Source of the DNA: Aminobacter carboxidus
Lineage (GTDB): Bacteria; Pseudomonadota; Alphaproteobacteria; Rhizobiales; Rhizobiaceae
Reading direction: 5' to 3'
Assembly: GCF_014863355.1 (NCBI RefSeq)
Contig: NZ_JACZEP010000005.1
Coordinates: 248,001 to 312,000 of the forward strand
DNA length: 64,000 nucleotides
Shown: positions 50,785-64,000 of the stretch, in pieces
Position numbering within the stretch: the stretch's first letter is position 1
Layout of the letters: every line of letters starts with the position of its first letter
Program-made: the position numbers and the translations under genes
Notes under the pieces: generated by a model
Databases searched by the model: none
Told to the model about the DNA's origin: nothing
What the model saw: only the letters and a program-made list of their open reading frames with translations

Positions 50785-50886
50785 AGTTTTTCTGAAATCT
50801 GCATCAGTTATTTCGGTTTGATAAAAGTGACCGCTTTCTACATCGTACCCCTCGAGGCCATCACAACGACAACAAAGGGAACTGCG

Positions 50887-51891
50887 ATGAAGCTCAAGAC
50901 ATCCATTCTTGCGGGAGTTTGCCTTGCCTGCATGGCGCTCGGCTCCAATGCCGCCGAGGCTACGGAATGCGGGACGAAGGATCCGATCACGATCGCCGAA
51001 ATGACCTGGCTGTCCGCCGGAACGCTCGCCTATGTCACCAAGGCAATCCTTGCCGAAGGCTACGGCTGCAACGTCCAGATCGTGCCGGGCGACACGGTTC
51101 CGACAGCATCGTCGATGCTTGCCAAGGGAGAGCCTGACATCGCACCCGAGCTCTGGGTCTCTACTGTAAAGTCGACCTGGGATCAGATGCTGGCGAAGGG
51201 CACCGTCTACAAGGCGGGTGACATCTTTGCCAGCGGTGGCCAAGAGGGCTGGTGGATCCCGGACTACATCGCCGAGGCGCATCCGGAGATCCGATCCGTC
51301 AGCGATCTCAAGGACAACTGGCAGGTGTTTGAGGATCCCTCGAATCCAGGCAAGGGCCGTTTCTATGCTTGCCCGCCTGGCTGGGGTTGCGAGATCATTA
51401 CCAACAATCTGGTCAAGGCGCTCGACCTGGAGGCGACTTACGAGGTCTATCCAACCGGTTCGGGCGCAAACCTCAAGGCGATGATCGCCAGGCAGGTGTC
51501 GCGCAAGAAGCCCTTCATTGGCTGGTACTGGGGACCGACCGAGGTGATCGGCAAATACAAGCTCAAGGTTCTCGGCATGCCGGCCTATAACCCGGCCAAG
51601 TTCACTTGCCTGACCGATGCCAAATGCGAAAAGCCGGAACTGACCGGCTGGGCCGTTGGCGAAGTTGCTGTCGCCGTGACTACCAGCCTCAAAGACAGGG
51701 CGCCGGCCGTTGCCGAATTCCTGTCGAAGATGCAGGTGCCGAACGTCGAGATCAGTGACGTGCTGGCTTGGGGCGACGACAACAAGGCGTCCCCCGAAGA
51801 GGTCGCTACGTACTTCTTCAAAAATTACGAGGCGATCTGGACCACGTGGGTTCCGGCCGATGTCGCCGAAAAGGTGAAGGCTGCACTCTGA
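50887..51891 (+). CDS. glycine betaine/choline-type ABC transporter substrate-binding protein (OpuAC family)
   Basis: 334 residues. Signal peptide of about 25 residues (AGVCLACMALGSNAAEA), then the OpuAC fold: PITIAEMTWLSAGTLAYVTK, PDIAPELWVSTVKSTWDQML, GSGANLKAMIARQVSRKKPF and GWYWGPTEVIGKYKL. The Trp-rich pocket suits a quaternary ammonium or similar compound. Periplasmic. ATG 50887. First gene of the transporter half of the cluster. Confidence 0.9.
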   Translation: MKLKTSILAGVCLACMALGSNAAEATECGTKDPITIAEMTWLSAGTLAYVTKAILAEGYGCNVQIVPGDTVPTASSMLAKGEPDIAPELWVSTVKSTWDQMLAKGTVYKAGDIFASGGQEGWWIPDYIAEAHPEIRSVSDLKDNWQVFEDPSNPGKGRFYACPPGWGCEIITNNLVKALDLEATYEVYPTGSGANLKAMIARQVSRKKPFIGWYWGPTEVIGKYKLKVLGMPAYNPAKFTCLTDAKCEKPELTGWAVGEVAVAVTTSLKDRAPAVAEFLSKMQVPNVEISDVLAWGDDNKASPEEVATYFFKNYEAIWTTWVPADVAEKVKAAL

Positions 51892-51900
51892 TCGCAGCCT

Positions 51901-51934
51901 GGCGGCCGCGTATCTTCCCCCAGTCGCGGCCGCC
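51901..51934 (+). repeat. first of two tandem hairpins between binding protein and permease
   Basis: GGCGGCCGCG and CGCGGCCGCC form a perfect 10-bp stem with a 14-base loop, 9 bases after the binding-protein stop. A likely 3' stabiliser that keeps the binding-protein mRNA in excess. Confidence 0.55.
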
Positions 51935-51988
51935 CTTCACATACGATGCCCGACTGGCTGCCTGGGGCTGTACTCGGAACGTCGAGAA

Positions 51989-52014
51989 CCGGCCGCCTCC
52001 GCGAGAGCGGCCGG
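51989..52014 (+). repeat. second tandem hairpin
   Basis: CCGGCCGC and GCGGCCGG form a perfect 8-bp stem with a 10-base loop, 54 bases after the first hairpin and 33 before the permease GTG. Same composition as the first; may be a REP-like pair. Confidence 0.5.
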
Positions 52015-52047
52015 CAGCGGGTCACCAACCTTTGAAAGGGTCACCCC

Positions 52048-52920
52048 GTGGCAGACAATTTTCCGGAACTCTTCGACACTCGCGGGCTTCGTTTTGCGAT
52101 CGATGATGGTTTCAGCTGGGTTGTCACAAACTATGGCGACACGCTCGAGCGGATGCTGGGGCCGCTGCTCAAGCTTCTGGGCGCTATGGAAGCCTTCCTG
52201 CAATGGTTGCCTTGGTATGTCACGATCGCCGGCGTCGCACTGTTGACGTACTCGGCCTCGCGAAACCTGAGGATGACCTGCAGCGCGGTCATCATGCTGT
52301 TCTTCATCGGTGCCGTAGGCTTGTGGAACGATGCCATGGCGACTGTCGCGCTGATGCTCGCTGCAACTGCGGTCGCCGTCGTGCTTGGGATCCCACTTGG
52401 TATCGTGATGGCACGTTCCGACTGGTTGCGCTCGGTGGCGCTGCCGCTTCTGAACATCATGCAGACGTTGCCGATCTTCGTCTATCTCATTCCTTTCGTT
52501 ATGCTGTTCGGACCTGGTAAGATCCCAGCTATCCTCGCCACCGTGTTCTTTGCCATCCCGCCGGTCATCCGGCTGACCGATCTCGGCATCCGTCAGGTGG
52601 ATGGCGAGGTAGTCGAGGCAATAGTCGCTTTTGGCGCGACACCGGGGCAAAAACTCATGAAGGTCCAGATCCCACTGGCCCTACCGACGATCATGGCCGG
52701 CATCAACCAGACGACAATGATGGCGCTGTCGATGGTGGTCATAGCCTCGATGATCGGTGCGGGCGGGCTTGGATACCAAGTGCTGCAGGGGATTCAGCGG
52801 CTGGAAGTCAGCCGAGGCCTGGTTGCGGGCATCGCCATCGTCTTTCTGGCAGTGATCTTCGACCGCATTGCACAGTCCTACGGACGTCGTGCTCAGAAGC
52901 ACCTCGACAATGGGGAGTAG
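52048..52920 (+). CDS. glycine betaine-type ABC transporter permease (OpuAB/ProW)
   Basis: 290 residues, about six membrane helices. EAA loop EAIVAFGATPGQKLMKVQIP, then LPTIMAGINQTTMMALSMVV, typical of ProW. GTG start at 52048. Works with the ATPase that follows and the binding protein before it. Confidence 0.9.
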   Translation: MADNFPELFDTRGLRFAIDDGFSWVVTNYGDTLERMLGPLLKLLGAMEAFLQWLPWYVTIAGVALLTYSASRNLRMTCSAVIMLFFIGAVGLWNDAMATVALMLAATAVAVVLGIPLGIVMARSDWLRSVALPLLNIMQTLPIFVYLIPFVMLFGPGKIPAILATVFFAIPPVIRLTDLGIRQVDGEVVEAIVAFGATPGQKLMKVQIPLALPTIMAGINQTTMMALSMVVIASMIGAGGLGYQVLQGIQRLEVSRGLVAGIAIVFLAVIFDRIAQSYGRRAQKHLDNGE

Positions 52921-52924
52921 GGCA

Positions 52925-54112
52925 GTGACTGCTTCGGACGTGAAAATCCAGGTCGACAAGGTCTACAAGATCTTTGGCAACCGAGCGGATGATGCGATGG
53001 CCGCACTCCAGGCCGGCGCGGCAAAGGCGGAAGTTTTGCACAAGACCGGCTGCATCGTCGGCCTCAAGCGTATCGATTTTTCGATCCGCCGCGGCGAGAC
53101 CTTCGTTATCATGGGGCTTTCGGGCTCGGGAAAATCGACGCTGATCCGCCATTTCAACCGGCTGATCGAACCCACCTCGGGCCGCATCCTCGTCGACGGG
53201 TGCAACATCATGGACATGAATGCCAAGGAACTGCTGGCATTTCGTCGCACCGGCATTTCCATGGTGTTCCAGCGTTTCGGTCTGTTGCCGCATCAAACGG
53301 TTCTGGAGAACACGATCTGCGGGCCGATCCTCCAGGGCGTGGATCAGCGCGAAGCGCGGGCGCGTGGCATGGAGCAGCTTGAGCTCGTCGGGTTGAAGGG
53401 CTTCGAGAACCGCTTTCCCAGGCAGCTCTCAGGCGGCATGCAGCAGCGCGTCGGCCTGGCTCGGGCGCTCACGACGCAGGCAGACGTGCTGCTGATGGAC
53501 GAGGCCTTCAGCGCGCTGGATCCGCTGATCAAAAGCGACATGCAGGAACAGTTGAAGGACATTCAGGCCCGGCTGAAGAAGACCATCATCTTCATTACCC
53601 ACGACCTCGACGAGGCGCTACATCTCGGCGACCGCATCGCCATCCTCAAGGACGGCGAACTGCGCCAGGTTGGCACTGGAGAGGAAATCCTGTTCCGCCC
53701 GGCGGACGATTATGTCGAGCGCTTCGTCCGCAAGGTCGATCTGTCGCGCGCCCTGTACACGCACGATGCCTTTGCCAAGGTTCCCGTGCTGACGCAGGCA
53801 CAAGCCACAGGAGACCGGACAACCGCACTGTTGCGCCAGCATCCTGCTGTGATCGTTGTGCATGGCGCCAAGTTGCGCGTGCTTACCTCGGCCGAGCCAG
53901 ATCGGGCGAACTGTGCCGCATCCATCGATGCCACAGCCACCCTTGGCCAGAGCTTTCCACTCTTGGCAGACCAGGAGGCTATCGTCGTCATGGACAGCGG
54001 TGCACCCGTTGGAATCCTCACGCGCGAAATGGCGTTCAAGGCACTGTCGCGATCGCACGGGGCAGCTAACAAACTATCGCCAGCCAGCCTGCTTCCATCA
54101 CCAGTCGCCTAG
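52925..54112 (+). CDS. glycine betaine-type ABC transporter ATP-binding protein (OpuAA/ProV)
   Basis: 395 residues. Walker A GLSGSGKST, signature LSGGMQQR, Walker B VLLMDEAFSALDPL, H-loop FITHDLDEAL. A C-terminal CBS-like tail (about residues 290-395) fits the ProV group. GTG 52925 has GGGGAG upstream; the earlier ATG at 52868 overlaps the permease end. Last gene of the operon. Confidence 0.9.
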   Translation: MTASDVKIQVDKVYKIFGNRADDAMAALQAGAAKAEVLHKTGCIVGLKRIDFSIRRGETFVIMGLSGSGKSTLIRHFNRLIEPTSGRILVDGCNIMDMNAKELLAFRRTGISMVFQRFGLLPHQTVLENTICGPILQGVDQREARARGMEQLELVGLKGFENRFPRQLSGGMQQRVGLARALTTQADVLLMDEAFSALDPLIKSDMQEQLKDIQARLKKTIIFITHDLDEALHLGDRIAILKDGELRQVGTGEEILFRPADDYVERFVRKVDLSRALYTHDAFAKVPVLTQAQATGDRTTALLRQHPAVIVVHGAKLRVLTSAEPDRANCAASIDATATLGQSFPLLADQEAIVVMDSGAPVGILTREMAFKALSRSHGAANKLSPASLLPSPVA

Positions 54113-54184
54113 TCACGGCGCCACGTCATGCGCGCTTTGGGCAGGCAAGCGGAAATGTCGGATGGAGCCGAACTGGTCGCGGGG

Positions 54185-55081
54185 TCAATGAACGGACTTC
54201 AGCAGAAAGTCGCGGAAGCACCGTGCGGCAGGCGAAAGGGAACGCGTCCGCTTCTGGATCAGGCTAACCTCGCGCTTGATGTGCGGCTCGGTCGGTGTGC
54301 GGACGACGAGACCCATGGAGGTCGCAAGACGCGTGACGGCCGAGGTCATGATCGCGACGCCTAAGCCGCCTTCAACCATGCCGATGATCGTCAGCGGCAG
54401 AGCCACTTCTTGCATCGATTTGTCCAGCGGCAAAACGATGCCGTTGCGCGCAAGTTCGTTTTCCAGCCGGTCGCGGATCGGGTTGCCACGCTGCGGACCG
54501 ATCAATTTGCAGTCGGCAAGGTCGGTCCAGCGCAACTCGGGACGTTTCACCAGCGGGTCGTCGGCATGGAGCACCACCAAGAACTCGTCGGTGGAAAGAC
54601 GCGTGCCGACGAGTTCCGAATCGTCTTCCGGCACCGTGCCGAGTCCGAGATCGACCAAACCGCTGGCGACCTGTTCCAGTACGGTCTTCTCCGCGACATC
54701 GTGCAGTTCGACCGTGATCTCGCTGTAGAGCTTGGTGAAGGCGTTGACGAGCTGCGGCAGCATCAGGGCGGCCTGAACCGTGCCGGCGGCCATCGTGACC
54801 TTACCGCGCCGCAGCGCATTCAGTTCTCGCGAACTCTCCACCATGCCCTCGATATCGGCAACGGCGCGGGCTGCGATCGGCAGGATGTCAATGCCCGCCT
54901 GGGTGAGGCGCAGCAGGCGGGTGTGCCGATCGAAGAGACGAAGATTAAGATTTTGCTCCAGCTGCCGCACCAGGGTGCTGACGGCCGATTGCGACGATCC
55001 GAGCTTGTCGGCGGCCAGCGTGAACTGCCCGAGATTGGCCACGGTGACGAAGGCGCGAAGCTGTTTCAGCGTGACGTCCAT
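54185..55081 (-). CDS. LysR-family regulator divergent from the nucleobase permease
   Basis: 298 residues. HTH (VTLKQLRAFVTVANLGQFTL, then SSQSAVSTLVRQLEQNL) and a standard effector domain (GKVTMAAGTVQAALMLPQLV). Divergent from the permease/molybdenum-hydroxylase cluster across 162 bases, hence its likely regulator. Convergent with the betaine-transporter operon. Confidence 0.9.
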   Translation of the reverse strand: MDVTLKQLRAFVTVANLGQFTLAADKLGSSQSAVSTLVRQLEQNLNLRLFDRHTRLLRLTQAGIDILPIAARAVADIEGMVESSRELNALRRGKVTMAAGTVQAALMLPQLVNAFTKLYSEITVELHDVAEKTVLEQVASGLVDLGLGTVPEDDSELVGTRLSTDEFLVVLHADDPLVKRPELRWTDLADCKLIGPQRGNPIRDRLENELARNGIVLPLDKSMQEVALPLTIIGMVEGGLGVAIMTSAVTRLATSMGLVVRTPTEPHIKREVSLIQKRTRSLSPAARCFRDFLLKSVH

Positions 55082-55243
55082 GCCGGTCCATTCATTCAGT
55101 TACTAGATGAATAAATATGATTGTGCCGATTGTTTGCTGATTTGGCCAGCCGCATGATCCCCCTTGTACGGCGTGCGGTGACAAAACATGAGGCCAAGAT
55201 GCCCCCCACCGCGCCGGAACACTATTCGCTGGGAGGATAGCGA

Positions 55244-56638
55244 ATGTCCAATCTTGATACGACGGATCCCGTCGAGAAGAAGTACCTGTTTCCGAGCCTT
55301 TTCGCTCTCGGCCTGCAACACGTTCTCGTCATGTATGCCGGCGCTGTCGCGGTGCCGCTCATCGTCGGCAGCGCGCTGCATTTGCCCAAGGATCAGATCG
55401 CCATGCTGGTCAGCGCGGATCTGTTTTGTTGCGGCATCGTCACCATCATCCAAGCTCTTGGTTTCGGCCGCCACGTCGGCATCCGGCTGCCAATCATGAT
55501 GGGCATTTCGTTTACTGCCGTTCCCTCGATCATCGCAACGGGCAGCAATCCGGACCTCGGCATGCCCGGCGTCATTGGCGCGGTCATCGCCTCCGGTGTC
55601 TTCACCGTCATCGCCGCGCCCTTTTTCGGGCGTTGGGTGCGGTTCTTCCCACCTGTGGTCACCGGCACGGTCATGCTGGTCATCGGCCTTTCGCTGATGC
55701 GCGTCGGCGTCAACTGGGCCGCTGGCGGCCAACCGATGATCCGGGGGCCGGAAGGCATGATCCCGAACCCGGCCTATGGCGCCCCCTTCGCGCTTTCCGT
55801 CGCAGCCATCGTGCTGCTGTCGATCCTGCTGCTCACGCGGGTTCTAAAAGGCTTCTTGTCCAACCTAGCGGTGCTGATGGGCATCGGCATTGGCTTTGCC
55901 ATCGCGATCGCATCCGGCAAGGTTGATTTCCATGGCGTAGCCGACGCCGGCTGGGTGCGCATCGTCCACCCGCTCGCCTTCGGCTGGCCGGTCTTCGAGT
56001 TCTGGTCGATCCTGTCTCTCTGTGCGGTCATGACCGTCATGATGATCGAATCGACCGGGCAATTCCTGGCGGTCGGCGACATGGCCGGGCGCAAGATCAC
56101 CCAGGCCGAGCTTACCCGCGGCCTCAGAACAGACGGCGTGGGCAACATCATCGGTGGCCTGCTCAACACCTTCACCTACACCACCTATGCGCAGAATGTC
56201 GGTCTACTGCAGATCACCGGCGTCTTGAGCCGATATGTGGTCGCTGCGGGCGGCGTCATCCTGATCCTGCTCGGTTCGCTGCCGAAGGTCGCCTTCGTCA
56301 GCGCCTCGATCCCGAGCTACGTCGTCGGCGGTGCCGCCATTGTCATGTTCGGTATGGTCTCGGCGACGGGTGTGAAGATCCTGGCTAAGGTGGATTTCGT
56401 CGCCAATCGCCGCAACCTCTACATCGTCGCGGTCAGCGTCGGGCTCGCCATGGTGCCGGTCGTGGCCGACAACATCTTCGCCCAGCTTCCGGCCGCGGTC
56501 GGCAAGTTCCTGCACAGCGGCGTGCTTGTCGGCACGTTTGCGGCAGCACTGCTCAACATCCTCTTCAACGGCGTGCCCGCGAAAGAGCGTGAGGACAGCG
56601 AGCTGCAGAACGGTGCGCCGGCGGCCGACCTCGCCTGA
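55244..56638 (+). CDS. NCS2-family nucleobase/xanthine-uracil permease
   Basis: 464 residues, 12-14 membrane helices. NCS2 signatures: FALGLQHVLVMYAGAVAVPL, the helix-8 FWSILSLCAVMTVMMIESTG, and FTYTTYAQNVGLLQITGVLS. Symports a purine, pyrimidine or related heterocycle with protons. GGGAGG upstream of the ATG. First gene of the hydroxylase cluster; its substrate is probably the compound that the molybdenum enzyme attacks. Confidence 0.92.
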   Translation: MSNLDTTDPVEKKYLFPSLFALGLQHVLVMYAGAVAVPLIVGSALHLPKDQIAMLVSADLFCCGIVTIIQALGFGRHVGIRLPIMMGISFTAVPSIIATGSNPDLGMPGVIGAVIASGVFTVIAAPFFGRWVRFFPPVVTGTVMLVIGLSLMRVGVNWAAGGQPMIRGPEGMIPNPAYGAPFALSVAAIVLLSILLLTRVLKGFLSNLAVLMGIGIGFAIAIASGKVDFHGVADAGWVRIVHPLAFGWPVFEFWSILSLCAVMTVMMIESTGQFLAVGDMAGRKITQAELTRGLRTDGVGNIIGGLLNTFTYTTYAQNVGLLQITGVLSRYVVAAGGVILILLGSLPKVAFVSASIPSYVVGGAAIVMFGMVSATGVKILAKVDFVANRRNLYIVAVSVGLAMVPVVADNIFAQLPAAVGKFLHSGVLVGTFAAALLNILFNGVPAKEREDSELQNGAPAADLA

Positions 56639-56656
56639 ACAGCAACAAACATGAGT

Positions 56657-56678
56657 CCGGCGGCCGTCGCGCCGCCGG
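56657..56678 (+). terminator. hairpin between the permease and the hydroxylase genes
   Basis: CCGGCGGC and GCCGCCGG form a perfect 8-bp stem with a 6-base loop, 18 bases after the permease stop. No T-run; perhaps a partial terminator or mRNA boundary. Confidence 0.4.
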
Positions 56679-56732
56679 AGCACGAGCCCTGAGCCCAAGA
56701 GGCTAAACGGCCAGAAATCCTAGAGGAATGAC

Positions 56733-57596
56733 ATGAGGCGCTTTGAATACCATCGGGCGGACACGCTGGAGCAGGCCTCCCGTCTTCTCACCGATCTCGG
56801 TGACGACACCTTTTTGTTCAACGGCGGGACGGACCTTTTGGTCGAGATCCGCGAACGACTGCGCCGGGTGCGCCATGTCGTCGACATCAAGCAGATCCCG
56901 GGTCTTTCCGACATCACCTATGACGAAACACGCGGCCTGACCTTTGGTGCGCTGGTGACCGTTGGGCGACTGGAAAACCTGGCGCTGGTGCGCCAGCGCT
57001 ACCCGAACCTGCGCGCAGCCTTTGCTTCGCTCGGCTCCATCCAGGTGCGCAACCGTGCGACCGTGGTGGGCAATGTCTGCCGAGCCTCGCCGTCGGCCGA
57101 TACGATCCCACCACTGATTGCCGATGGCGCCTTCATCCATATCTACAGCCGCACCAACATGCGGGTGGTCCCGCTTGCCGAATTCTTCACCGGCCCCGGC
57201 AAGACGGTGCTGGCCAAGGGCGAGATCGTCACCGGCATCACCGTGCCGCCGGCCGGCGACAACGCCGGCAAGGCCTATCTCAAGCACGGCCGCCGCAAGG
57301 CGATGGAACTCTCCACCGTCGGCGTCGCTGTCAGCCTCACTATGGAAGACGGTCTCTGCAATGACATCCGCATCGCGCTCGGCGCGGTTGGTGCCACCGT
57401 GCTGCGCGCGCCCGAAGCCGAAGCCATGCTCCGCGGCACTGCGCTCGACGCGGTAACTGTCAAGAACGCCGCCGACAAGGCGATGGAAGAGTGCACGCCG
57501 ATCAGCAACGTGCGCGCCAGCGCCGACTACCGCCGCGACATGGTCGGTGTGCTGACCGGGCGCGCCATCAAACAGGCACTGGAGGCTTTCGCATGA
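56733..57596 (+). CDS. FAD-binding subunit of a xanthine dehydrogenase-family molybdenum hydroxylase (CoxM type)
   Basis: 287 residues. FAD-binding FNGGTDLLVEIRERLRRVRH, then ASPSADTIPPLIADGAF and the C-terminal NVRASADYRRDMVGVL. Medium subunit of a three-subunit hydroxylase. Passes electrons from the iron-sulfur subunit to an acceptor. Its stop overlaps the next start (ATGA). Confidence 0.92.
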   Translation: MRRFEYHRADTLEQASRLLTDLGDDTFLFNGGTDLLVEIRERLRRVRHVVDIKQIPGLSDITYDETRGLTFGALVTVGRLENLALVRQRYPNLRAAFASLGSIQVRNRATVVGNVCRASPSADTIPPLIADGAFIHIYSRTNMRVVPLAEFFTGPGKTVLAKGEIVTGITVPPAGDNAGKAYLKHGRRKAMELSTVGVAVSLTMEDGLCNDIRIALGAVGATVLRAPEAEAMLRGTALDAVTVKNAADKAMEECTPISNVRASADYRRDMVGVLTGRAIKQALEAFA

Positions 57597-58075
57597 AACG
57601 GATCGTCGAACTCATCATCAATGGCGAGCCGCGCGACATGACGGTGGATAGCTGCCGTTCGCTGCTCGATGCGCTGCGCGACGATGTCGGCCTCACCGGC
57701 ACCAAGAAGGGCTGCGACGTCGGCGACTGCGGTGCGTGTACCGTCATCGTCGATGGCGAGCCGGTCAATGCCTGTCTGATGCTTGCAGTGGAGGCCGAAG
57801 GCCGCACGGTCGAGACGATCGAGGGGCTTCAGCCGGGCGTCGATGTGCTGCATCCGCTGCAGGATGCCTTCATGCGCTACGGCGCTTCGCAATGCGGCTT
57901 CTGCACGCCGGGCATCCTGATGATGGCCAAGAAGCTGCTCGACGACAATCCGCGCCCGACGGACGAGGACATCCGCTTCGGCCTCAGCGGCAACATCTGC
58001 CGCTGCACCGGCTACACCAAGATTTTCGACGCGATCAAAGCCGCCGCGATCGAGATGGAGGCTGCAAGATCATGA
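57593..58075 (+). CDS. (2Fe-2S) subunit of the molybdenum hydroxylase (CoxS type)
   Basis: 160 residues. Two 2Fe-2S clusters: the ferredoxin-type set in GCDVGDCGACTVIVDGEPV and the helical set in QCGFCTPGILMM and GNICRCTGY. Small subunit. Coupled by ATGA overlaps on both sides. Confidence 0.94.
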   Translation: MKRIVELIINGEPRDMTVDSCRSLLDALRDDVGLTGTKKGCDVGDCGACTVIVDGEPVNACLMLAVEAEGRTVETIEGLQPGVDVLHPLQDAFMRYGASQCGFCTPGILMMAKKLLDDNPRPTDEDIRFGLSGNICRCTGYTKIFDAIKAAAIEMEAARS

Positions 58076-60378
58076 ACATGACGACCCCTATCGAAAAGCG
58101 CGAATTCAAGATCGTCGGCAAGAGCGTCCGCCGCGACGACGTGCTCGAAAAGGTGACGGGCGAGGCCGAATACACTGGCGACGTCAAACTGTCGGGCATG
58201 CTGCACGGCAAGATCAAGCGCGCGGCAATCGCCCATGCGCGGATCAAGAGCATCGATGTCAGCAAGGCGCTCGCCTATCCCGGCGTTAAGGCGGTGCTAA
58301 CCCACGAGAACGTACCGCGCGTGCTGCACTACGGCTCGCCGCATCCGCGCTCGGCTTCCTGCACCAAGGACCAGTTCATCCTCGATGACAGGGTACGGTT
58401 CTGGGGCGAAGGCGTAGCTGCAGTCGCCGCCATCAGCGAAGAAATCGCCGACGAGGCGCTCGACCTGATCGAGGTCGAATACGAGCCCTTGCCGGCCGTT
58501 TTCGAGCCGGAGGATGCAGCCCAGCCGGGTGCGCCGCTGATTCACGAGGTCGGGCCGGGCGGCAACCTGGTACTTGATCCGGTGCGTATCAATCGCGGCG
58601 ATGTTGAAGCGGGCTTTGCCCAGGCGGATTTCGTGCTCGAGGGCACCTTCTCAGGCGGGCGCCCGCATCCGGCCTATATGGAGCCGAATGTCTGCATCGC
58701 GGACTGGGACGGCTCCAACAAACTGACCTTCTGGACCTCCACCCAGACCTCTTTCATGGTGCGCGGCATCCTGGCCGAAGTACTCGGCCTGCCGCTCACC
58801 AAGGTGCGCGTGCTCGTCGACCACATGGGTGGCGGCTTTGGGGCGAAGCAGGATCTGTTCCAGCATGAATTCCTCTGTGCACTGCTGGCGAAGGAAACGC
58901 GCCGGCCGGTGAAGATGGAATTCACTCGCCACGAGACCTTCGTCGCCGGCCGCTCGCGCCATCCCTGCAAGATATGGCTGAAGCAGGGCTTCAAGAACGA
59001 CGGCACGCTCGTCGCCCGCGACATGAAGCTCGTCTATGACTCGGGCGCCTACGGCTCGCACGGCCCGGGCGTAACGATCGTTGGCACCACCGCCGCCACC
59101 TCGCTCTATCGCTGCGAAAACGTGCGCCTAGAGGGGCGCTGCGTTTACACCAACACGCCGATCAACGGCGCTTTCCGCGGCTACGGCGTGGTGCAGAGCT
59201 ACTATGCGCTCGACATCCAGATGGACGAGGCGGCAGAGCGGCTCGGCATGGACCCAGCGGAGCTGAAGCTGAAGAACGTGGTGCGCGCCGGCGACATCGC
59301 CCCGTCGGGCCATCCGATCCTCGGCCACGGGCTGGAAATCTGCCTCCAGCACGGCATCGACGTGCTCGATTGGAAAAAGCTGCGCAACCGCGACCGTACG
59401 CCGGATCCCAGGCACCCGCACATGCGAACCGGCTGGGGCATCGGCTGCGAAATGCACGGTTCTTCCGCCTATCCCGGCATCAAGGAACAGGGCAACGCCA
59501 CGGTGAAGGTCAACGAGGACGGCACGGTGACGCTGCTCACCGGTGCCGCTGGCCTCGGCACCGGCGCGCATACCGCGCTAGCGCAGATCGTTGGCGAAGA
59601 ACTCGGCGTGCGCTTCGAAGATGTCGGCACGATCCATGGCGATACCGACGTTGTGCCGTGGGACATCGGCGCCTTTGCCAGCCACACGACCTATCTCGTC
59701 GGCACGGCCGCCAAGATGGCCGCCGGCAAGGTGCGCGCGGCCGTTCTCGATCGCGCTGCGATGAAACTGCAGGTTTCTGCGGCCGAGATCGACCTTTCCG
59801 AAGGCAAGGTCTTTGTCATCGGTGATCCTGGTCGTTGCATGACGGTCGCCGAGGCGATGGGTCCGTCGCGCGGCATTCCCGCAGCCAACATCGTTGCGAA
59901 CGGCACCTACGAGCCGACCAAGTCCTATTCTTTTGCCGCGCATTTCGCTGAGGTACATGTCGATACGGAAACCGGCATCGTCGAGGTGAAGCGCGTCATA
60001 CCGGTGCACGATGTCGGCCGTGTTATCCACCCGATCGCCGCACAGGGCCAGATCGAGGGCGGTATACAGCAGGGCATCGGCCACACGCTGACCGAAGACT
60101 ACATCATCGATAAGAAAACCGGTCGGTCGCTCAACGCCGGCCTCGTCGATTACAAGATGCCGCTGTCCATGGACATGCCTGATATCGAGACGATCATCCT
60201 CGAGGCAGCACCGGATCCGGGCGGCCCATGGGGTGCCAAGGGCGTCGGCGAAGATCCGATCATCGCCATCGGACCGGCCATCGCCAACGCCATCCACGAT
60301 GCCATCGGCGTCCGCTTCCACCATTATCCGATCACTCCGGAAGACATCCTGAAAGCCTTGAGGGAGAAGGGCGCATGA
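58072..60378 (+). CDS. molybdopterin catalytic subunit of the xanthine dehydrogenase-family hydroxylase
   Basis: 768 residues. Moco-binding blocks GGGFGAKQD and GAFRGYGVVQ (the Arg that orients purines in XDH is kept), and the catalytic Glu in GAKGVGEDP. Hydroxylates a heteroaromatic ring or aldehyde with water as oxygen source. Its shape follows the CoxL/nicotinate/xanthine subfamily rather than CO dehydrogenase, since no AYRCSFR-type loop is seen. With the upstream permease a heterocycle is the likely substrate. Confidence 0.92.
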   Translation: MNMTTPIEKREFKIVGKSVRRDDVLEKVTGEAEYTGDVKLSGMLHGKIKRAAIAHARIKSIDVSKALAYPGVKAVLTHENVPRVLHYGSPHPRSASCTKDQFILDDRVRFWGEGVAAVAAISEEIADEALDLIEVEYEPLPAVFEPEDAAQPGAPLIHEVGPGGNLVLDPVRINRGDVEAGFAQADFVLEGTFSGGRPHPAYMEPNVCIADWDGSNKLTFWTSTQTSFMVRGILAEVLGLPLTKVRVLVDHMGGGFGAKQDLFQHEFLCALLAKETRRPVKMEFTRHETFVAGRSRHPCKIWLKQGFKNDGTLVARDMKLVYDSGAYGSHGPGVTIVGTTAATSLYRCENVRLEGRCVYTNTPINGAFRGYGVVQSYYALDIQMDEAAERLGMDPAELKLKNVVRAGDIAPSGHPILGHGLEICLQHGIDVLDWKKLRNRDRTPDPRHPHMRTGWGIGCEMHGSSAYPGIKEQGNATVKVNEDGTVTLLTGAAGLGTGAHTALAQIVGEELGVRFEDVGTIHGDTDVVPWDIGAFASHTTYLVGTAAKMAAGKVRAAVLDRAAMKLQVSAAEIDLSEGKVFVIGDPGRCMTVAEAMGPSRGIPAANIVANGTYEPTKSYSFAAHFAEVHVDTETGIVEVKRVIPVHDVGRVIHPIAAQGQIEGGIQQGIGHTLTEDYIIDKKTGRSLNAGLVDYKMPLSMDMPDIETIILEAAPDPGGPWGAKGVGEDPIIAIGPAIANAIHDAIGVRFHHYPITPEDILKALREKGA

Positions 60379-61496
60379 ACATGCATATCGAACCCGCGAG
60401 CCAGAAGCTCCCCATCACGATCCTCACTGGGTTCCTCGGATCGGGAAAGACGACGCTGCTCAACTACATCCTCACCGAACGCCACGGCCACCGCATCGCG
60501 GTGATCGAGAACGAGTTTGGCGAAGTCGACGTCGACAGCGACCTGGTGCTCGCCTCCGATGAGGAGATCTTTCAGATGCAGAACGGCTGCATCTGCTGCT
60601 TCGTCGATGTGCGCAACGACCTCATCGACGTGATGAAGAAGCTCTTGAGCCACAAGGACAAGTTCGACCACATCATCGTCGAAACTTCGGGCTTGGCGGA
60701 CCCGACCCCCGTCGCCACTGCCTTCTTCGTAGACCGCAGTGTCGCCGACGAGGTCGAGCTGGATGCCATCGTCACGCTCGTCGATGCCATGCATATCGAC
60801 CAGCACCTCTACGATCCGGTGCTGGACGGCAGCGACAACCAGGCGGTCAACCAGATCGTCGCGGCCGACCGCATCATCGTCAACAAGATCGACCTTGCAG
60901 GTGAGGAGGCGCTCGGCTCGCTGGAGGCGTCGCTGCGCAAGCTCAACCAGACTGCACCCATCCTGCGTTCCAGCTACGGCGTCGTGGACCTTACGAACAT
61001 CCTCGGCGTCAACGGCTTCCGGCCGTCCTACGTGCGCGAGCGGGCGGAAATACTCGACATCGACATGGACAACGACCACGACGCGCATGGCCATCACCAC
61101 CACGAATGCCACGATTCGGCCTGCGACCATCCAGACCATGGCCACGAGCACCATCATGATCACGGCCACGCTCCCGCACTGCGACCGCACAGCCATGACG
61201 CGACGGTAAAGTCTCACTCCTTCGTCTACCCGCACTCGTTCGACGGCGAGAAGCTCGCCACCTTCCTGAAGGATTATCTCGACGAGCGCGGCGACGACAT
61301 CTTCCGCACCAAAGGTATCGTTTCGGTGGCCAATGACGAGCGCTTCTTTGTGCTCCAGGCGGTGCACAAGCTGGTCGATTTCCGCCCGGACCACAGCTGG
61401 GGCGAGGACACGCGGAAGTCGAAGTTCGTCTTCATCGGCCGCAATCTCGACCGTGACGGCATAGACAGGAACTTGCGTGCATGCCTGGCGGCCTAG
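60375..61496 (+). CDS. CobW/COG0523-family GTPase metallochaperone with His-rich insert
   Basis: 373 residues. Walker A GFLGSGKTT (19-27), the metal-binding GCICC (71-75), NKID (170-173) and the C-terminal CobW domain. Residues 235-274 hold about 20 histidines with Cys and Asp, a metal store. Overlaps the hydroxylase stop (ATGA), so co-made with it. Probably loads zinc or another metal into the amidohydrolases that follow, or into a cofactor of the pathway. Confidence 0.92.
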   Translation: MNMHIEPASQKLPITILTGFLGSGKTTLLNYILTERHGHRIAVIENEFGEVDVDSDLVLASDEEIFQMQNGCICCFVDVRNDLIDVMKKLLSHKDKFDHIIVETSGLADPTPVATAFFVDRSVADEVELDAIVTLVDAMHIDQHLYDPVLDGSDNQAVNQIVAADRIIVNKIDLAGEEALGSLEASLRKLNQTAPILRSSYGVVDLTNILGVNGFRPSYVRERAEILDIDMDNDHDAHGHHHHECHDSACDHPDHGHEHHHDHGHAPALRPHSHDATVKSHSFVYPHSFDGEKLATFLKDYLDERGDDIFRTKGIVSVANDERFFVLQAVHKLVDFRPDHSWGEDTRKSKFVFIGRNLDRDGIDRNLRACLAA

Positions 61497-61544
61497 CGTC
61501 GTTTCTCCCGTCCTAAGCGCCTGCTCAAGAACTCTGTCCAAGAC

Positions 61545-61570
61545 GTCCGCGCAATTTCCAGTGCGCGGAC
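61545..61570 (+). terminator. hairpin after the CobW-family gene
   Basis: Perfect 8-bp stem with a 10-base loop, 48 bases after the GTPase stop. No strong T-run. Confidence 0.4.
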
Positions 61571-61820
61571 GGTCGCCTCTTGCTCTGCGAAAAATCATTT
61601 AAAAAGAATGAGTTAGAGCAGTTTGTCGATTGACAAAAAGGCGATCTCATGGTTTCTTCAAAGGCGAGTAGAAGCGCCGACAATTGCTCACCGTCTGTTG
61701 GACGATGAGGCCGCGATGTCGATGCTCTCTGTGAAAGGAACACCTGTTGGCTGCAGCCGCCCCGCGGCATCAGCACCAGCTTTCCTTCCCCGTCATTGGC
61801 ATTTCCTGAGATCGCGCATC

Positions 61821-61844
61821 CCATGCCGGCTTTTGCCGGCATGG
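61821..61844 (+). promoter_or_regulatory. strong leader hairpin before the amidohydrolase pair
   Basis: CCATGCCGGC, loop TTTT, GCCGGCATGG: a perfect 10-bp stem ending 54 bases before the ATG at 61898. Could be a terminator of upstream transcription, an attenuator or a protein-binding RNA site. Confidence 0.45.
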
Positions 61845-61897
61845 CGTTCATCGCGCGGCCCCGCATCGACCGGACCCTCTACGACAGGAGAACAGGA

Positions 61898-62821
61898 ATG
61901 ATAATCGACCTAAGCTGCTATCCCACCGATCTGGTGGACCTGGCTTGGCGCCACGACGGTCCGCCGTTCACCGGCGACAAGCTTTTGAAGATGATGGACG
62001 GCCCGTACTATGTGAACGGCAAGCCGCGCCGCATCGACAAGGCCTTCATCCAGCCGCCGCAGGGCAACACTATCTACACCCATGAAGTCATGGACCTAGA
62101 AGGCAAGGCCGCCATCCGCCAGTACATGGCGTACACGGAAAAGATGGTGACGGAGCATCCCGACCGCTTCCTCGGCTGCTTCGTCTACAACCCGCGCTAC
62201 GGCACGCAGAACGGCGCCGAAGAAATCGAACGCTACGCAAAGGAGTTCGATTTCAAGATGGTGCAGCTGCAGGCGAACATGCACGCCTACCGCCCCGACC
62301 GCGCGCTCGACTGGCTGCGTCCGGCCATGAAGAAATGCGCCGAGCTCGGCCTGATGGTGAAGGTGCATACTGGCGACGGCCCGTACTCGATCCCGACGGA
62401 GTTCTACCCGATCATCCGCGAGTTCCCGGAAGTGAACTTCATCCTGGCGCATTTCGGTGTTCAGACCGGCGGCGTCTACGTGTTCGAGCCGATGCAGATG
62501 GCGCTGGACACACCCAGTGTCTACGTCGAATCCGGCTGGTGCCTGCAGTCGCGCATCGTCGAATTCGCCAAGGTCCTGCCCAAGCACAAGATCCTGTTCG
62601 GCTCAGATACGCCGCCGAACGAGCCGGGCATGTGGATCAACCTTCTGGAAGTCCTCTGCCACGAGCCGCCGCAGGGCCTCAACCTAGATGAGGATACGCT
62701 CGAGGATTACCTCGGCAACAACACCGCCCGCATGATCGGCCTCGAGCCGACCAAGGCTCCGGCGAGCGTCGAGGAAGCCGAAGCGTATCTGCGCCAGCAC
62801 GGCGTCGCGCTCGCCGCATAA
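61898..62821 (+). CDS. amidohydrolase-2 family protein lacking the HxH metal motif
   Basis: 307 residues, TIM-barrel family of ACMSD/gamma-resorcylate-type decarboxylases. The first-strand H-x-H is replaced by Ser6-Cys7-Tyr8 (MIIDLSCYPTD), while His157 (KVHTGDG), His185 (LAHFG) and Asp237 (GSDTPPN) remain. It is closely similar throughout to the next gene, which has the HxH. Either it binds metal in another way, or it is a structural/regulatory partner of its paralogue. ATG 61898 with CAGGA upstream. Confidence 0.88.
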   Translation: MIIDLSCYPTDLVDLAWRHDGPPFTGDKLLKMMDGPYYVNGKPRRIDKAFIQPPQGNTIYTHEVMDLEGKAAIRQYMAYTEKMVTEHPDRFLGCFVYNPRYGTQNGAEEIERYAKEFDFKMVQLQANMHAYRPDRALDWLRPAMKKCAELGLMVKVHTGDGPYSIPTEFYPIIREFPEVNFILAHFGVQTGGVYVFEPMQMALDTPSVYVESGWCLQSRIVEFAKVLPKHKILFGSDTPPNEPGMWINLLEVLCHEPPQGLNLDEDTLEDYLGNNTARMIGLEPTKAPASVEEAEAYLRQHGVALAA

Positions 62822-62839
62822 AATTGAACGGAGTGAATC

Positions 62840-63784
62840 ATGATCATCGATACCCATCTTCACCCGACCAACCTCGTCGACGAGGCATGGCGTCATACGG
62901 GTACGCCCTTCACCGGCGAGCGCATGCTGAAGCTGATGGACGGCCCCTACATGATCAACGGCAAGCCGCGCCGGATCGACATGGGTTTCATCCAGCCGCC
63001 GCCGGGCAATACCGGCTACCGTGATGGCAACCGCAAGGGCCGCGACGGTATTCGCGACTACATGGCCTACTGCGCCGAGCTATGTCAGACGTATCCGGAC
63101 CGCTTCATCGGCAACTTCAACTACAACCCGCGCTGGGGCCCTGAAAACGGCGCAGCAGAGCTGGAATTCCACGTCAAGGAATACGGCTTCAAGATGCTGA
63201 AGCTGCATGCCAACATGCACGGCTACCGCCCTGACCGCGCACTCGACTGGCTACGTCCGGCGATGAAGAAGTGCGCCGAACTCGGCGTTGTCGTCCTCAT
63301 CCACACCGGCGACGGTCCGTACACCATCCCGACGATGTTTTACCCGATCATCCGCGAGTTCCCGATGGTCAACTTCATCATCGGCCATTTCGGCATCCAG
63401 ACGGGCGGCAACTACTCGTTCGAATCCTTCTGGATGGCGATGGATACGCCGAACGTCTACTGCGAATCCGGCTGGTGCTTCCAGTCGCGCATCGTGGAGT
63501 TCGCCCAGCAGCTGCCGAAAAACAAGATCGTCTTCGGCACGGATAGCCCGCCGAACGATCCGGGCATGTGGCTGCGCGAGCTGGAAGTGCTCTGCAAGGA
63601 CCCGCCGCACGGCATCAACCTCTCCGAGGAATATCTGGAAGGCTATCTCGGCAACAACATCGCCAAGCTCGTCGGCATCGACCCGTCGCCGCCGCCGCGC
63701 GACGTGAAGGATGCCCAGGCACGCCTAAAGGACTCCTATGCCGGCGTCGACCGCGCCACCGGAAGGCACCTGGAGTTCGCGTGA
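62840..63784 (+). CDS. amidohydrolase-2 family (decarboxylase/hydrolase)
   Basis: 314 residues. Complete metal site: His6-x-His8 (DTHLHP), His155 (IHTGDG), His183 (GHFG) and Asp235 (GTDSPPN). Family members decarboxylate hydroxyaromatic acids or hydrolyse lactones and amides. Tandem paralogue of the preceding gene, 18 bases apart. Followed by a UbiD-type gene, so decarboxylation of a (hetero)aromatic carboxylate is the favoured role. Confidence 0.9.
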   Translation: MIIDTHLHPTNLVDEAWRHTGTPFTGERMLKLMDGPYMINGKPRRIDMGFIQPPPGNTGYRDGNRKGRDGIRDYMAYCAELCQTYPDRFIGNFNYNPRWGPENGAAELEFHVKEYGFKMLKLHANMHGYRPDRALDWLRPAMKKCAELGVVVLIHTGDGPYTIPTMFYPIIREFPMVNFIIGHFGIQTGGNYSFESFWMAMDTPNVYCESGWCFQSRIVEFAQQLPKNKIVFGTDSPPNDPGMWLRELEVLCKDPPHGINLSEEYLEGYLGNNIAKLVGIDPSPPPRDVKDAQARLKDSYAGVDRATGRHLEFA

Positions 63785-63843: not shown

Positions 63844-64000
63844 ATGACCCAGCATCACAAGCAAGACGTCCGCCGTTTCCTCGCTGACTATCGGTCGGAA
63901 CATCCCGAGGATGTCATCACCATCGACCGGCCGGTCTCGGACGACCAGGACGCAACCGCGCTGATCTGGAACCTTGCGGACAAGGGCCAGCATCCGATGC
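63844..64000 (+). CDS. UbiD-family decarboxylase, N-terminal part (cut by window edge)
   Basis: About 52 residues: DVRRFLADYRSEHPEDVITI, then DRPVSDDQDATALIWNLADK. This matches the start of UbiD-family prenylated-FMN-dependent (de)carboxylases. The rest lies outside the window. It follows the amidohydrolase by 59 bases in the same direction. Confidence 0.78.
   Translation, partial: MTQHHKQDVRRFLADYRSEHPEDVITIDRPVSDDQDATALIWNLADKGQHPM

Follow-up and report, generated by a model that had tools for sequence, protein, structure and literature searches.

Background

Amidohydrolases of the ACMSD-like family PF04909 include ACMSD itself, gamma-resorcylate/2,6-dihydroxybenzoate decarboxylase, 5-carboxyvanillate decarboxylase, the LigJ hydratase and isoorotate decarboxylase, and their metal sites follow a common pattern of a His-x-His (HxH) motif, two further histidines and an aspartate. 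An amidohydrolase that lacks its metal site can be an obligatory subunit of another enzyme, as is the pseudo-dihydroorotase in the aspartate transcarbamoylase of Pseudomonas. Here we describe two adjacent genes, called Ami1 and Ami2, from a stretch of 64,000 nucleotides of Aminobacter carboxidus (contig NZ_JACZEP010000005.1, positions 248,001 to 312,000; hereafter the window). Their products share the Pfam family and the predicted barrel fold of the enzymes above, and Ami2 matches the complete metal-site pattern. The two genes are inherited together, and their surroundings make them candidates for a step in the breakdown of pterins.

A bacterial route of this kind was reportedly described by McNutt (J Biol Chem 1963-64) in Alcaligenes faecalis, where isoxanthopterin is said to be converted to 7-hydroxylumazine, tetraoxypteridine, xanthine-8-carboxylate and finally xanthine, with a tetraoxypteridine isomerase among the activities. 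Tetraoxypteridine and xanthine-8-carboxylate are isomers. In a 2022 study of folate degradation by Variovorax (PMC9513972), folate and pteroate are deaminated and, as far as its main text goes, later breakdown is left open; in that main text the terms 'gene cluster', 'UbiD', 'amidohydrolase' and 'xanthine dehydrogenase' each have 0 occurrences. A search of the open-access literature, with subscription papers outside its scope, found no paper naming the genes described here, and no genes assigned to tetraoxypteridine isomerase or to the decarboxylation of xanthine-8-carboxylate.

Results

The two open reading frames of the pair lie on the same strand and are separated by 18 bases:

61898..62821, plus strand: Ami1, upstream member of the pair, an ACMSD-like amidohydrolase with Ser6-Cys7-Tyr8 in place of HxH; ATG start, 307 amino acids
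62840..63784, plus strand: Ami2, ACMSD-like amidohydrolase with His6-x-His8, His155, His183 and Asp235; ATG start, 314 amino acids

Pairwise alignment gave a full-length identity of 64%, which bears out the description, in an earlier note on this DNA, of two reading frames at 61898-63784 that are similar from end to end. The stretches MDGPY, NGKPRRID and ALDWLRPAMKKCAELG are common to both proteins, and both clear the PF04909 (Amidohydro_2, ACMSD-like) gathering cut-off of 26.4 bits by a wide margin, Ami1 with 130.7 bits and Ami2 with 160.6 bits. The N-termini read MIIDLSCYP in Ami1 and MIIDTHLHP in Ami2, and at the end of strand 1, the position of HxH in the family pattern, Ami2 carries HLH (80 of 80 sequences) and Ami1 carries S-C-Y instead (81 of 81). 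In the 81 loci described below, SCYP is fixed in every Ami1 and HLHP in all 80 complete Ami2 sequences, the 81st Ami2 (L071) being truncated by the end of its contig. The contrast between His6-x-His8 in Ami2 and Ser6-Cys-Tyr8 in Ami1, which the note had read from the window, therefore extends across the whole set of loci, and its statement that two other histidines and an aspartate are kept by both proteins was also correct (H157/H155, H185/H183 and D237/D235 in Ami1/Ami2, each kept by 98.5% or more of the sequences of either paralogue). The paralogues differ further on or just after predicted strand 4, where Gln123 and Gln125 are fixed in Ami1 versus Lys121 and His123 in Ami2, and in the stretch RDGNR (61-65), the conservation of which is limited to Ami2. 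A pseudo-enzyme heteromer of Ami1 and Ami2 is plausible. The host genome also encodes a distant relative of Ami2 (L003:1246-2091, near 158314 of contig C27 of genome G000; 281 amino acids, 31% identity over part of the length), the N-terminus of which likewise lacks HxH.

To follow the pair beyond the window, 84,980 species genomes were scanned with Ami1 and the best 80 of 163 relatives were taken, which together with the window's own locus (L004) gave 81 loci. The 80 non-window loci comprise 32 from beta-, 28 from alpha- and 19 from gamma-proteobacteria and 1 from an actinomycete. Ami1 and Ami2 are adjacent, in the same order and on the same strand, in all 81, with a gap that ranges from -4 to 60 bases, and the genes overlap in 23 loci. 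This set was picked by similarity to Ami1, so that singletons could be hidden in it, and surveys of whole genomes are fairer. With Ami2 as the query, carriers numbered 25 of 249 genomes in the genus of the Pseudomonas genome (L040; E<=1e-25), 38 of 200 in the family of the Paraburkholderia genome (L039; E<=1e-20) and 4 of 398 in the window's phylum (E<=1e-20), at least two of these four recurring, with identical coordinates, in the Paraburkholderia-family survey. Each carrier in the three surveys gave exactly two matches, side by side in the listed coordinates. In the window's order the only carrier was the window's own genome (1 of 297, with either Ami1 or Ami2 as the query, E<=1e-40), and five more genomes searched to E<=1e-10 gave just the two matches. 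Among plasmids, 91 records held 182 matches to the Ami1 query, two per record in all 30 records listed, and in two records no match reaches 80% query coverage.

The earlier note had proposed looking for the same pair in other genomes and had named Ami1 occurring alone as evidence against its idea of an obligate heteromer. At the thresholds used in the genus, family and phylum surveys, no genome with Ami1 or Ami2 alone was found. The presence of exactly two adjacent matches in every carrier supports an obligate pair, and we regard the conclusion that Ami1 and Ami2 are obligate and co-inherited as strongly supported. The distribution of the pair is patchy, as expected for a catabolic island. One record (L023), from the actinomycete Enemella evansiae, holds the cluster with an Ami1 88-89% identical to that of the window and a gene order resembling that of Mameliella (L025), which may reflect either horizontal transfer or contamination of the assembly.

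In a tree of 22 Ami1 and 22 Ami2 sequences with one distant outgroup, Ami2 formed one side of a branch of length 0.52 with a support of 99/100. A branch supported this well indicates one split that predates the spread of the pair, so the paralogues probably diverged before being distributed over alpha-, beta- and gamma-proteobacteria, and a recent or strain-specific duplication is ruled out. The outgroup is too distant to fix the root (its branch, of about 10, attaches among the Ami1 rows), and the tree allows an ancestor with or without HxH. Mean pairwise distances over the same loci were 0.18 for Ami1, 0.11 for Ami2 and 0.29 for the neighbouring UbiD, and the lower value for Ami1 than for UbiD indicates that Ami1 is strongly constrained. 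Decay of the Ami1 gene is ruled out by this comparison and by its unusual motif, which all 81 loci retain.

Alternatively, Ami1 may be an enzyme in its own right, with a divergent metal site or a metal-free one, and the two proteins may carry out consecutive reactions without associating, an arrangement compatible with any reading of the pathway. The near-invariance of H157, H185, D237 and many polar residues, which is more than a structural partner seems to need, speaks for such an enzyme. The short or negative gap in every locus, the 23 overlaps and the lack of singletons in the surveys are, on the other side, typical of subunits and fall short of proving a complex, and on balance we consider an independent Ami1 fairly unlikely.

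AlphaFold2 models built from an alignment of 30 sequences were of moderate quality (pLDDT, the predicted local distance difference test, 80.8 for Ami1 and 77.1 for Ami2; pTM, the predicted template-modelling score, 0.86 and 0.82). The 50 Foldseek matches listed for each model belong largely to the group of ACMSD, dihydroxybenzoate decarboxylase, LigJ and isoorotate decarboxylase, with query-normalised template-modelling scores of 0.52-0.65 and identities of 11-20%. The top matches of Ami2 are 2,6-dihydroxybenzoate and related decarboxylases, and both models match ACMSD and isoorotate decarboxylase, the latter solved with uracil. A sequence-only search of solved structures at E<=0.001 found four relatives of Ami2 and no relative of Ami1. 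One member of the fold group, the zinc-dependent decarboxylase PDB 4IFK, has a title that names an arginine from the neighbouring subunit as essential, and by analogy it offers a precedent in this fold for a site shared between subunits. The least certain stretches of the models, 128-131 and 187-191 in Ami1 and 187-190 in Ami2, lie in or beside strongly conserved segments; binding of a partner or a ligand may give them order, or their uncertainty may simply stem from the shallow alignment.

The pair lies in a cluster of genes for transport, oxidation and decarboxylation that runs past the end of the window:

54185..55081, minus strand: LysR-type regulator, divergent, assigned from its translation alone; a homologue stands beside the NCS2 gene in rhizobial loci
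55244..56638, plus strand: NCS2 permease, above the cut-off of the xanthine permease subfamily TIGR03173; in 68 of 81 loci
56733..57596, plus strand: molybdenum hydroxylase, flavin adenine dinucleotide (FAD) subunit, assigned by family scans
57593..58075, plus strand: molybdenum hydroxylase, [2Fe-2S] subunit; in 73 of 81 loci, plus L052 with another query
58072..60378, plus strand: molybdenum hydroxylase, large subunit, xanthine-dehydrogenase-like, under the cut-off of every xanthine dehydrogenase model listed for it
60375..61496, plus strand: CobW-family GTPase, possibly for metal delivery; in 70 of 81 loci
63844..64000, plus strand: UbiD-family decarboxylase, start of the gene, which continues beyond the window (L004:10845-12218)
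L004:12222-12806: UbiX, after UbiD and outside the window; in 76 of 81 loci
after UbiX, outside the window: XdhC-like maturation factor

In the list of reading frames CobW begins at 60228; the start given above is an internal ATG, which overlaps the preceding gene's stop. In 79 of 81 loci UbiD comes directly after Ami2 and on its strand, and the other two stop at a contig edge. UbiD scores 304 bits against the TIGR00148 cut-off of 244.85 and thus belongs to the family; the stretches YHR and EGPFGE, which presumably hold the catalytic arginine and glutamate, are present in 79 of 79 UbiD sequences. Among the solved structures closest to UbiD are 6H6X/6H6V and AnInD (7P9Q), which we take to act on heteroaromatic acids, furan-dicarboxylate and indole-carboxylate, respectively. 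Some of the loci in which one of these neighbours is missing are short contigs and others are not, as is the case for CobW in L021, L075, L079, L084 and L085.

The NCS2 permease exceeds the TIGR03173 cut-off of 414.15 bits both in the window (506.8) and in L040 (472.1). The large subunit of the molybdenum hydroxylase stays below the xanthine dehydrogenase models, with 653 bits against 780 (NF043082), 640 against 916 (NF007426) and about 325-328 against 849.5 (TIGR02965), and it reads GGGFGAKQ at a position where xanthine dehydrogenases read GGGFGGKE; its substrate may, on this evidence, be other than xanthine. A separate xanthine dehydrogenase encoded elsewhere in the host genome reaches 1370 bits (cut-off 849.5), which rules out the cluster's molybdenum enzyme as the normal xanthine dehydrogenase. 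The Paraburkholderia and Pseudomonas loci have a molybdenum hydroxylase of a different kind, and an FAD subunit like that of the window was not found in them; the type of reaction seems to be kept while the molybdenum enzyme is swapped between lineages. Looking for further conserved neighbours turned up mainly shadow frames, and Pfam scans of some neighbours identified transporters, regulators and unrelated enzymes.

Two sets of transporter genes flank the cluster. Upstream, at 50818-54112 of the window, translations resemble an ATP-binding cassette (ABC) transporter of the glycine-betaine/proline type (binding protein, permease and ATPase). Downstream (L005:277-2289 and L004:15567-19203) lies a look-alike of a BMP-type nucleoside importer, also an ABC transporter, with two binding proteins, two permeases and an ATPase, accompanied by a CodA-like deaminase; relatives occur near the cluster in some other loci.

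A deaminase of one of two types is present in the flank of 60 of 81 loci. The NF009059/PRK12393 cut-off of 543 bits was passed by both deaminases tested, from L039 (798.6) and L040 (778.9), and tblastn found homologues of this type in 41 of 81 loci, 40 at 71% identity or more and L078 at 47-48%. Against solved structures the deaminase of the Paraburkholderia locus L039 matched 2PAJ best, at 454 bits, followed by 3HPA (306) and the 8-oxoguanine deaminase 7WW2 (294); we take 2PAJ to be isoxanthopterin deaminase (Hall et al. 2010). The second type, a CodA-like deaminase, occurs in 19 other loci, namely 18 from alpha-proteobacteria and that of the actinomycete. In the window's genome it lies about 10.6 kb past Ami2 (L005:2341-3633), just outside the fetched flank, and it is also carried by Sinorhizobium meliloti pSymB, at 69% identity, and by a plasmid of E. 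adhaerens, at 82%.

An Rfam search of 29 of the 81 loci found the xanthine riboswitch RF03054 (cut-off 36 bits) directly upstream of Ami1 and on the same strand in three of them, all from Ensifer/Sinorhizobium:

L027:9804-9873: RF03054, 43.4 bits, 127 bases to the Ami1 start
L028:9804-9873: RF03054, 41.4 bits, 127 bases to the Ami1 start
L029:9791-9860: RF03054, 41.5 bits, 140 bases to the Ami1 start

Its position upstream of Ami1 points, independently of the gene content, to xanthine or a close compound as the product of the operon.

Discussion

The gene surroundings suggest pterin catabolism with xanthine as the end. To lead from a pterin to xanthine, a pathway requires a deaminase, a molybdenum hydroxylase, an amide-bond enzyme, a decarboxylase dependent on prenylated flavin mononucleotide (prFMN) and a xanthine sensor, the components seen here, and for this reason we propose Ami1/Ami2 as the isomerase. 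An amidohydrolase suits the opening and re-closure of a ring, as UbiD suits the decarboxylation. In this scheme the NCS2 permease would take up the substrate, a cyclic-amidine deaminase (of the PRK12393 type in beta- and gamma-proteobacteria, of the CodA type in alpha-proteobacteria) would yield an oxygenated lumazine, and the molybdenum hydroxylase would produce 2,4,6,7-tetraoxypteridine. Water bound to the metal of Ami1/Ami2 would then open the pteridine at its oxalyl-diamide ring, and the amine so released would close on the remaining carbonyl to give xanthine-8-carboxylate. Ami2 would carry the metal site, for which CobW may deliver the metal, and the metal-site-degenerate Ami1 would complete the active site or the oligomer, with one subunit perhaps opening the pteridine ring and its partner steering re-closure. 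UbiD, with prFMN from UbiX, would decarboxylate xanthine-8-carboxylate, and the xanthine would enter normal purine catabolism through the host's separate xanthine dehydrogenase.

That Ami1/Ami2 form a heteromer within a pterin-to-xanthine catabolic cluster and contract tetraoxypteridine to xanthine-8-carboxylate is, in our estimation, an evenly balanced proposition, in which we infer the substrate, the order of the steps, the heteromer and the mechanism from what the data do show: the genes themselves, their joint inheritance and surroundings, the fixed difference in the motif and the riboswitch of three loci. We are somewhat more reserved about the claim that Ami1/Ami2 are the first gene pair for tetraoxypteridine isomerase, in which an intact and a metal-site-degenerate subunit would form an obligate heteromer, with UbiD/UbiX as the xanthine-8-carboxylate decarboxylase.

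Several observations weigh against this proposal. We know of no protein of the cluster with an established activity. In the window's genome PRK12393 stays below its cut-off (best 272 bits), and no substrate is assigned to the CodA-like deaminase there. Neither deaminase appears within the fetched flank of 21 of the 81 loci, the window's L004 among them; although short contigs account for some of the 21, both types are also missing from Cupriavidus and Paracoccaceae loci with a full flank. The riboswitch is confined to one lineage among the loci searched, and an Rfam search of 54000-62000 of the window gave no match at E<=1. The correlation of Ami1 and Ami2 distances, 0.92, is nearly equaled by that with UbiD, 0.90, so that mirror-tree correlation is ruled out as evidence of specific contact. 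The moderate models superpose loosely on solved relatives (root-mean-square deviation about 5-11 A), and many of the solved relatives listed are decarboxylases, so the pair could itself decarboxylate.

This last point leads to a second explanation, that the pair is a heteromeric non-oxidative decarboxylase acting, for example, on a pteridine or purine carboxylate, while UbiD takes another carboxylate derived from folate, for instance pterin-6- or lumazine-6-carboxylate. Decarboxylation is common in the fold and dominates the top matches of Ami2, and two decarboxylases, ACMSD and isoorotate decarboxylase, match both proteins. The identity to the solved decarboxylases listed is, however, below 20%, and with UbiD directly after Ami2 in all 79 loci with a long enough contig a second decarboxylase is less needed, and we judge this explanation unlikely.

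We are similarly doubtful that the cluster degrades another purine-like N-heterocycle, and not a pterin, through the same succession of deaminase, hydroxylase, pair and decarboxylase. The breadth of the NCS2 and molybdenum hydroxylase families would allow it, as would an alpha-proteobacterial deaminase that is merely CodA-like, but the deaminase of the tested Paraburkholderia locus is nearest to 2PAJ and the riboswitch of three loci links the operon to xanthine. That the pair is a plain lactam hydrolase, which opens an oxidised pteridine or related N-heterocycle and passes on the ring-opened product, appears improbable, for although hydrolysis of an amide makes up the first half of the isomerisation proposed above and, as is generally known, gives the superfamily its name, UbiD is understood to act on conjugated acids and would better match a re-closed imidazole carboxylate than an open oxamate, and the riboswitch in three loci indicates xanthine as the product.

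Conclusions

If the proposed tetraoxypteridine isomerase is correct, genes would be attached to a bacterial pterin-to-purine route that has reportedly been known biochemically for sixty years, and bacteria would have a pathway leading all the way from pterin to purine. The chemistry reportedly described for the Alcaligenes faecalis isomerase and the decarboxylation that follows it fits the deaminase, molybdenum hydroxylase, amide-bond enzyme and decarboxylase of the cluster, a link that we draw from gene context. At its head the proposed pathway would use the same type of reaction as the pterin deaminases (Arad3529 and the PDA of Variovorax F1) and isoxanthopterin deaminase. A function would also be gained for a cluster present in many proteobacteria, including S. 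meliloti, which carries it on pSymB; in the two annotated plasmid records examined the pair is annotated just 'amidohydrolase'.

In the structural matches listed, the known ACMSD-like enzymes of PF04909 share 11-20% identity with the pair, and among the titles listed none describes an intact and a motif-less paralogue together. A parallel for the arrangement, the Pseudomonas pseudo-dihydroorotase, has a transcarbamoylase as its partner, whereas the partner of Ami1 is an intact paralogue of its own family. If the heteromer is real, Ami1/Ami2 would be a clean case of an amidohydrolase tied to a paralogue without the metal motif.

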